Source: Chthoniobacteraceae bacterium (lineage in GTDB: Bacteria; Verrucomicrobiota; Verrucomicrobiia; Chthoniobacterales; Chthoniobacteraceae). From it: a stretch of 64,000 nucleotides of DNA. Of the stretch, positions 3,891 to 5,116 are shown one piece after another. Each line of letters opens with the position of its first letter. The first letter of the stretch is position 1. The position numbers and the translations under genes were made by a program. Below the pieces are notes generated by a model. The model was not told the DNA's origin and did not search any database. It saw only the letters and a program-made list of their open reading frames with translations. The stretch covers positions 1 to 64,000 of the forward strand of contig CANIWM010000003.1 of the NCBI GenBank assembly GCA_947471505.1, written 5' to 3'.

Positions 3891-4364
3891 TTATGTTTCC
3901 ATCAATGCCGCAGGAGTGCAAATCTGAGGACATTCAAATCCCGCCTCGCTGCAGACGGTCTCGACCCGGCGGCGATGGAAGGGGTTGGCGATGTGCTTGC
4001 AGTTCCATGTGAGAAGGAAGTTCATCGCGTGAACTGCGGCGAGGGCGATGTGGGTCGCGTCGGGCGCGGATGAGTGCGGGATGATGTCGCGGGCGAGGAT
4101 TCGCTCGGCGAGGCGATCGACTGTGAGGGTCTGGTCGAGTTGCGGGATGCCGGCAAGTATCTTGTGGCGCGCGTCTGCCATCGTGCGTTCTCCCGATGCC
4201 GACTCGTCGAGGACGAGTTCTGAGGTGAAAAGCTCGTATCCCCCGCGCTTTTCGTCCCACCAACGGAGGGTGGTTTCCTGATCGGCGGCGAGCCGGGCAT
4301 CACGGCTGCGGCGCGCGACGAGGTAGCTGGGGATGGTGGTTTCGATGTAGAGGCGCGGTTTCAT
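3891..4364 (-). CDS. PIN-domain protein, VapC-like toxin
   Basis: This 157-residue protein is a PIN-domain ribonuclease of the type found in toxin-antitoxin modules. The first acidic strand is L-Y-I-E-T-T-I-P-S-Y-L near residue 5, with Glu8 in the place usually held by Asp. A second acidic group is S-E-L-V-L-D-E near 48-54, followed by P-D-A-T-H-I-A-L-A and the C-terminal strand F-L-L-T-W-N-C-K-H-I. PIN toxins cleave RNA using these acidic residues and a metal. It sits between a 49-codon ORF upstream and the duplicated-motif protein downstream, all on one strand. Which neighbour is the antitoxin is unclear. Confidence 0.75.
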   Translation of the reverse strand: MKPRLYIETTIPSYLVARRSRDARLAADQETTLRWWDEKRGGYELFTSELVLDESASGERTMADARHKILAGIPQLDQTLTVDRLAERILARDIIPHSSAPDATHIALAAVHAMNFLLTWNCKHIANPFHRRRVETVCSEAGFECPQICTPAALMET

Positions 4365-4373
4365 CGGGTTACG

Positions 4374-4523
4374 TCATTTCCAGATCGCTTTCGCTTTCCC
4401 GCTTTCGACGAGCGCCTGCTCGGTCACGGGGAGCTTTTGCAGGAAGTCGAGGCCGGTCTTTGCCTCGATGGCGGCGAAGGTCCGACGTCCAATGATTCCA
4501 CGCGATGGTGACTGTGGGTGCAT
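4374..4523 (-). CDS. Small ORF upstream of PIN gene, possible antitoxin or gene remnant
   Basis: A 49-codon reading frame runs from the ATG at 4523 to the TGA at 4374-4376, ten bases before the PIN gene. It reads R-R-T-F-A-A-I-E-A-K-T-G-L near residues 13-25 and ends G-K-A-K-A-I-W-K, which has the character of a real protein: amphipathic, with normal codon use. Its place directly upstream of a PIN gene is that of a VapB-type antitoxin, but it lacks a recognisable DNA-binding domain. It could also be the C-terminal scrap of a longer antitoxin. Confidence 0.4.
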   Translation of the reverse strand: MHPQSPSRGIIGRRTFAAIEAKTGLDFLQKLPVTEQALVESGKAKAIWK

Positions 4524-4628
4524 GGGGTGCTAGGGGAGCGGGCTTGGCGGCGGATGGCGAGGCGATTTTTCCACGAAGCACGCGAATGGGTGCGATTAAA
4601 AGTGGAATGCAACAGGAACGGCACCAAA

Positions 4629-4755
4629 AGGGCGAAAGCCCTCAAGGAGGGGGAACGTCCCGTTCCCCTGTGGCGCAAAGCGCCGCTCTGAAGCTGCGAG
4701 CAACCGGGAACCACTTCGTGGTTCAGGGGAACGAGACGTTCCCCCTCCTTGGGGC
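4629..4755. repeat. Large compound palindrome (REP/MITE-like)
   Basis: The arms 4639-4670 and 4724-4755 pair at 29 of 32 positions. Each arm is itself a hairpin: gggaacg, three bases, cgttccc at 4651-4667 and again at 4727-4743. The centre carries two more hairpins, ggcgc-aaa-gcgcc (4672-4684) and gaaccac-ttc-gtggttc (4708-4724). A further GAAA tetraloop stem (agggc/gccct, 4629-4642) leads in. No coding capacity is supported between 4524 and 4828, so this element is the main content of that 305-base gap. It may be a non-autonomous transposable element or a structured transcript. Confidence 0.7.
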
Positions 4756-4828
4756 TGATCCCGTCCGGGCGCCTCCGTTTGCCGCTTTTAGATTCGGAAA
4801 AAGTGAGCGGCTTATTTCGTTTCACGTT

Positions 4829-5116
4829 TTACGTCGCGGGCAGGCGGTCGAGGCGCAGGAGGCAGACGCCGAAGTCGAGGGCGGGTTGGCCGGGGACTTG
4901 GTATTCGGGGGCGATGCCGTAGAGTTTGGGGCGGTCGTTGGTGACGATTCCGGCGCGGCGCAGGACGGTGATGTGTTTGCTGATGTTGGTGGCGGGGACG
5001 TTCAGTCGCTGGGATAGTTCGACGACTTGCAGCGGGCCGGCTTCGACGATGGCGGCGAGCATCCGCCAGCGGGTGAGGTCGGAGAGGGCGGTGAGGAGGG
5101 CGGGCATCGGGATCAT
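4829..5116 (-). CDS. ArsR-type winged-helix regulator
   Basis: This 95-residue protein is a compact winged helix-turn-helix regulator of the ArsR type. L-L-T-A-L-S-D-L-T-R-W-R-M-L is helix 1, V-V-E-L-S-Q-R-L-N-V-P-A-T-N-I-S-K-H is the DNA-reading helix-turn-helix (about 32-49), and L-R-R-A-G-I-V leads into the wing. No metal-binding cysteine pair is present, so it is unlikely to sense arsenic-type metals. A start at the second Met (5107) is possible. It is divergent from the DUF1080 gene at 5270 and could share the intervening 150 bases as a regulatory region. Confidence 0.75.
   Translation of the reverse strand: MIPMPALLTALSDLTRWRMLAAIVEAGPLQVVELSQRLNVPATNISKHITVLRRAGIVTNDRPKLYGIAPEYQVPGQPALDFGVCLLRLDRLPAT

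Follow-up and report, generated by a model that had tools for sequence, protein, structure and literature searches.

A nested palindrome in a Chthoniobacteraceae genome: a probable decayed composite of a REPIN-like repeat and an ISKra4-like MITE shell

The locus and its nested palindrome

The window analysed here is a stretch of 64,000 nucleotides from a Chthoniobacteraceae bacterium (contig CANIWM010000003.1 of assembly GCA_947471505.1, positions 1 to 64,000). It contains a nested palindrome (4629-4755) that sits between two minus-strand frames, one of which (3891-4364) has no match in Pfam and the other of which (4829-5116) encodes an ArsR/MarR-type regulator (Pfam). The gap was given as 305 bases in the preliminary description, but it measures 464 bases between the frames taken as genes (ends 4364 and 4829); two mechanical frames that span it (4424-4825 on the minus strand and 4505-5017 on the plus strand) were not accepted as genes. 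Elsewhere in the window, adjacent overlapping minus-strand frames (938-1996 and 1993-2727) match the Pfam domains GmrSD_N and FRG, both of which are associated with possible defence loci. The features of the window copy are as follows:

4588-4607, plus strand: left terminal inverted repeat of a MITE shell (GGGTGCGATTAAAAGTGGAA), from a pattern search, with 1 mismatch to the consensus end
4608-4642, plus strand: left spacer of the family A shell, common to other A shells, with a GGGC-GAAA-GCCC hairpin at 4630-4641
4643-4751, plus strand: REPIN-like core of family A, two inverted REPs flanking a loop (bounds from core-only copies)
4646-4668, plus strand: left REP, with its GGAG foot at 4646-4649 and hairpin at 4650-4668 (direct reading)
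4672-4684, plus strand: inner hairpin 1, GGCGC-AAA-GCGCC (direct reading)
4708-4724, plus strand: inner hairpin 2, GAACCAC-TTC-GTGGTTC (direct reading)
4726-4748, minus strand: right REP, inverted, with its hairpin at 4726-4744 and foot CTCC at 4745-4748 (direct reading)
4752-4790, plus strand: right spacer of the family A shell, common to its siblings (end approximate)

No right terminal inverted repeat (TIR) was found for the window copy at up to 5 mismatches, the expected end being eroded or deleted. The palindrome itself is built as had been described. Its best ungapped pair of 32-base arms is identical at 29 of 32 positions (4640-4671 against 4723-4754), and 4643-4670 matches the reverse complement of 4724-4751 at 27 of 28. 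The arms are themselves hairpins, GGGGAACG-TCC-CGTTCCCC at 4650-4668 and GGGGAACG-AGA-CGTTCCCC at 4726-4744, and both the two hairpins of the centre and the leading GAAA tetraloop stem are present. When the fold was predicted, the 181-base palindrome region reached -105.3 kcal/mol as compared with -71.2 (sd 4.8) for shuffled sequences (z -7.1), and none of the 200 shuffles folded as well.

The second copies that had been called for do exist. Window positions 4600-4780, searched against the organism's own genome (G000; a draft assembly of 6.07 Mb in 153 contigs), match it 48 times at E<=0.001 when both strands are counted, and 15 of these matches, the window copy among them, align over at least 130 bases; a half-site pattern was found at 48 places as against 2 for a backward control. 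In family A, to which these copies belong, each arm joins a GGAG foot to the hairpin that comes after it; the two arms stand in inverse orientation on either side of a loop containing two more hairpins. The window core is thus an inverted REP doublet that can fold into a hairpin, as in a REPIN, and its copies are dispersed, with an extragenic position established for the window copy alone. In diverged core-only copies both sides of the stem are altered jointly (AACG..CGTT to GGCCG..CGGCC). The foot is GGAG as against the GTAG-type foot of REPs; families C and N, which lie at RAYT-type genes, likewise have GGAG, which may count as a REP foot. Three A copies (L018, L020 and L023) have flanks with common TTTATTT / GGTATTA-like stretches, which may mark where a different repeat ends. 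By resemblance, the core of family A can be called REPIN-like, and for this core the earlier REPIN-like reading held; what that reading missed was that the core is usually enclosed in an ISKra4-like MITE shell with 9-bp target duplications.

Shell ends, target duplications and ISKra4-like relatives

Many A copies, when read with their flanks, were found to terminate in a 20-bp sequence, GGGTGTGATTAAAAGTGGAA, and its complement. This shell end occurs at 135 sites at up to 3/18 mismatches, compared with 3 for the backward pattern. A set of 42 two-ended sibling shells (30 in G000 and 12 in the same-genus genome G006, taken from examined loci rather than from whole genomes) was assembled, each a short non-coding element with terminal inverted repeats; the window copy retains the left repeat only. 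A 9-bp target duplication is exact at 14/42 shells and matches at 8/9 or better at 20/42, and the count becomes 22/42 with two exact 8-bp cases included; shuffled flank pairings gave none at 8/9 or better, and the longest exact duplication is 9. By family, duplications accompany 2/9 A, 3/3 B, 7/11 C, 1/6 D, 3/3 E, 2/3 F, 0/2 G and 3/3 H shells, and 1/2 of the unclassed ones, so that A, the family of the window copy, shows a weak signal, as do D and G. As the window copy is without its right TIR, the duplication evidence comes from sibling shells. Exact duplications were found at the REPIN-bearing shells L006 (AAGTTAAAG) and L058 (GGTCCGGCC), and at C3:77,379-77,663 a C shell lies within an A shell, with the duplication GCCGATGCC. 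A variant shell with the ends GGGTGTGATTAATTCTACTT holds two more D copies, whose flank bases match at 9/9 and 7/9, and at L251 the duplication is 7/9. Clustered within 2.5 kb of G000 (C3:75,344-77,815; L161, L194) are an F shell, the A shell with the inserted C shell and a TIR-less B repeat. In G006, a shell with an exact 9-bp duplication (L120 1321-1520) has an interior unlike all eight cargo families described below.

The ends are narrowly distributed. At up to 1 mismatch the 20-mer end was found in 2 of the 57 genomes searched (G000 and G006); a collection of named contigs, from which G000 is possibly absent, yielded the exact 20-mer in 19 stretches, all from one Prosthecobacter debontii MAG whose contig numbers and positions equal those of G006, and the TIR had 0 matches in viral contigs. 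Nearly the same ends bound a 284-bp MITE (L329 1237-1520) in G029, a member of another genus in the same family, with an exact duplication (CACGGAGGA) and other nested palindromes in its interior. Four contig ends of G029 (L335, L341, L344 and L350) likewise hold MITEs of this kind, with other palindromes nested between closely similar ends. No pair of occupied and empty orthologous sites was obtained between G000 and G006 (12 and 36 shells, in the available stretches); the one clean orthologous pair has the shell in both genomes (L008 and L130/L172), and the partial matches L157 and L106 were excluded from this comparison as they stop before the shell borders.

From GGG ends together with a 9-bp duplication we presumed the ISKra4 family, with the ends of IS21, IS481 and IS1595 as other candidates. 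Matches of ISKra4-like type were found in 8 of 54 genomes searched (own included), none at the curated cut-off. The NCBIfam ISKra4 model detected just two remnants in G000, both of which have a shell end past their C-terminal side, at 81 and 46 bp. Both ends are present at 3 of 20 ISKra4-like loci, two of them (L218 and L225) in G024, from the same family, and one (L219) in the same-genus genome G004. L218 measures 1,441 bp, has ends 17/20 identical to those of the shell and is bordered by an exact 9-bp duplication (AAATGCGGA); the flanks of L225 and L219 show poor duplications (1/9 and 4/9). A full-length partner with nearly the same ends is thus present in a relative, as L218, and remnants of such a partner lie beside shell ends in the own genome. 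Two ISKra4-like transposases score 190.6 and 188.2 bits, below the NCBIfam ISKra4 cut-off of 205, for which reason we use the name 'ISKra4-like'; their next best model is ISLre2, at 70.4 and 62.5. No intact ISKra4-like gene was found with this model in the draft assemblies of G000 and G006. The shells are possibly stranded at present, or else the drafts lack the gene. In the listed part of the 135 TIR sites, read by eye, no pair of ends 0.7-3.5 kb apart that would mark an autonomous element was seen in G000; the one pair at such a distance (2.3 kb, on C3) consists of separate shells. At 12 unpaired TIR sites (G000, G006) the inward side was read for frame lengths.

Cargo families and copies inside and outside shells

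The shell interiors are diverse. With probes drawn from the 42 shells themselves, 40/42 interiors match one of eight cargo families (A-H) and two are unclassed; at least seven distinct interiors occur between the same two ends. The cargo begins with GGAG in A and C, with GTAG in B, D, E and G, with AATAG in F and with neither in H. Among nine Y1 transposase matches in G000, the loci C97 and C1:181829 have two C and two D repeats at their flanks, whilst three F repeats flank the gene at the C2 locus, the protein of which is IS200, above the cut-off. A further RAYT-type gene, at C100 (L163 1-1445), is flanked by family N: a tandem of four copies lies upstream and a single copy downstream. The best match of the C97, C1 and C100 proteins is REP_Tyr_transpos, at 75.5, 65.4 and 63.7 bits as against a cut-off of 80, and the RAYT-like protein of C97 had 0 matches among PDB sequences. 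Family A is absent from all nine Y1 loci of the G000 draft, so that any link of A to RAYTs would be by way of its sister families. The proposal that a REP-associated transposase should be found accordingly applies to C and D, whose repeats do flank RAYT-type genes, but not to A, which flanks none. That the cargo of C and D consists of REPINs is well supported.

A census of copies was carried out with probes for C and D taken from the RAYT flanks and for A from the window; TIRs were counted at up to 5/20 mismatches within 175 bp, and a few are weak. At least one inward TIR accompanies 12/20 A, 19/25 C (18/24 before copy C80 was added) and 24/35 D copies of at least 80 bp, compared with 0 of the 96 places tested for a backward TIR and 0/20 for the contrast family N. 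REPIN copies also occur outside shells: 8/20 A copies of at least 80 bp have no TIR. The A census comprises 21 places, 20 of them of at least 80 bp, with matches of 23-47 bp and more diverged half-sites omitted; the 20 N places are 15 single matches of at least 80 bp, 3 joined pairs and 2 of 42-43 bp. Copies flanking RAYT genes (two C, two D and five N at C100) were omitted, as were further short N matches, and several census copies touch contig edges. In three of the searches 40 each of the 61, 66 and 53 initial candidates were scored, and the lists drawn from them may fall short of the full number. Single family C REPs (26-55 bp) have a TIR in 0/13 cases, and 2/3 of the D pieces shorter than 80 bp have one weak TIR. 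A survey of 461,966 bases in contig order covered C2 completely, together with 180 kb of C1, 20 kb of C4 and a 124-kb part of C3 that includes the window. It showed a TIR at 7/9 REPIN places, the C2 locus aside, a figure that leans towards shells since its probes came from shells.

When 37 D copies were placed on a tree, the label 'in shell' had to change 6 times as against a shuffled mean of 11.0, and well-supported branches force at least 3 changes between inside and outside. The label is therefore clustered, which indicates that shells explain part of the spread, with several entries or losses. The D copies of the variant shell are near-identical sisters on this tree.

A composite element and its alternatives

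Taken together, these observations make it highly probable that the window copy is a decayed composite, in which a REPIN-like REP doublet lies in a MITE shell with ISKra4-like ends. The anatomy of the shell, its duplications and its insertion sequence partner are well supported, and the whole suggests that hairpin repeats are carried within the ends of a second mini-transposon and can spread by more than one route. On this reading, the shell ends would once have been used in trans by an ISKra4-like transposase, which moved any palindrome between them; RAYTs would have mobilised these repeats too, along a single-strand pathway of their own, giving two vehicles. As one end of the window copy is eroded, it should no longer serve as a substrate for the shell route.

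Three other explanations were weighed against this composite. The element could be a plain REPIN moved by a RAYT alone, with the flanking terminal repeats a coincidence or an unrelated neighbour. Family N, with no TIR at any of its 20 places, behaves in this way, and so might the eight A copies without a TIR and five core-only A copies which, on our reading, have no shell spacers; we nevertheless consider this improbable, as 12 of the 20 A copies have a TIR where the backward control has none, and as the exact 9-bp duplications at L006 and L058 border the whole REPIN-bearing shells and not the REPIN. We find it just as improbable that the element is a plain MITE with inner palindromes of its own, unrelated to REPINs or RAYTs. 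The H shells and the two unclassed shells show no REP foot and no RAYT was found for family A, but C and D palindromes adjoin RAYT-type genes and exist elsewhere without TIRs, and a single pair of ends is common to at least seven interiors. Less probable still is that selection maintains a functional structured RNA, or a terminator of transcription, at this site. Such a role is favoured by the very stable predicted fold, beyond which the folded-RNA alternative of the preliminary description found no support, and would suit a position between two minus-strand frames; against it, a search of the window for known RNA families gave 0 Rfam matches at gathering score, and the copies are many, dispersed and variable in integrity, the window copy being minus one end.

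The composite nature of the element sets it beside several known systems. It resembles REPINs as defined in the abstract of PMC3116915, in having two inverted REPs with a loop, many dispersed copies and sister families at RAYT-type genes, and differs in that many A, C and D copies lie inside the ends of a second transposon with 9-bp duplications; a cognate RAYT is the usual companion of a REPIN but is outside the definition in that abstract. In the available text of PMC3733652, GTAG REPs, RAYTs and 'TIRtrons' are described and the verrucomicrobium O. terrae is reported to be rich in GTAG repeats beyond expectation; the likeness lies in tagged palindromes adjoining tyrosine transposases, but in 'TIRtrons' terminal repeats flank a tyrosine transposase gene, whereas here DDE-type ends enclose REPINs. 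Prokaryotic Mutator-like elements have inverted repeats of 18-39 bp and duplications of 8 or 9 bp, according to the accessible part of PMC3942029, and their ISKra4 group (p-MULT 4) is matched in repeat length, duplication size and the related transposase in relatives; the shells differ in being non-coding with REPIN cargo, and the insertion sequences score below the NCBIfam cut-off. The same source mentions the eukaryotic Pack-MULEs, which are similarly non-autonomous Mutator-superfamily elements with foreign pieces between their ends, but the cargo here is itself a mobile repeat and not a gene fragment, and capture is a candidate process. No printed description of REPINs within MITE ends was found among the papers listed, subscription papers and preprints aside, and none is given in the accessible portions of PMC3733652, PMC3116915, PMC2817692, PMC3686654, PMC3942029 and PMC8049555; on this literature, two known kinds of element appear to be combined in a manner for which no description was found.

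REPINs may have entered the shells through RAYT insertion into an empty MITE or through Pack-MULE-like capture. It is conceivable, and we hold the idea tentatively, that these are a bacterial counterpart of Pack-MULEs, in which REPINs from several unrelated families have repeatedly become enclosed by Mutator-superfamily (ISKra4-like) ends. Repeated entry is what is pointed to by the eight cargo families, by the two TIR variants that both occur with family D, by the at least 3 forced changes on the D tree, by a tandem of A and B within one shell (L008) and by the same-ended MITE of G029. REPINs are described as being duplicated by single-copy, vertically inherited RAYTs (PMC8049555, in its accessible text); were the counterpart real, such normally RAYT-bound repeats would gain a second, double-strand vehicle across the genome and possibly between strains. 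Should DDE-type MITE shells also carry REPINs, the copy number and spread of these repeats would not have to track what RAYTs do, and a second route would have to be built into models of how REPINs persist, for which the families with shell ends (A, C and D) and family N without them offer a natural comparison in one genome. The G006 orthologue of the L008 shell holds A plus a stub of B only, which we read as a deletion between short repeats.
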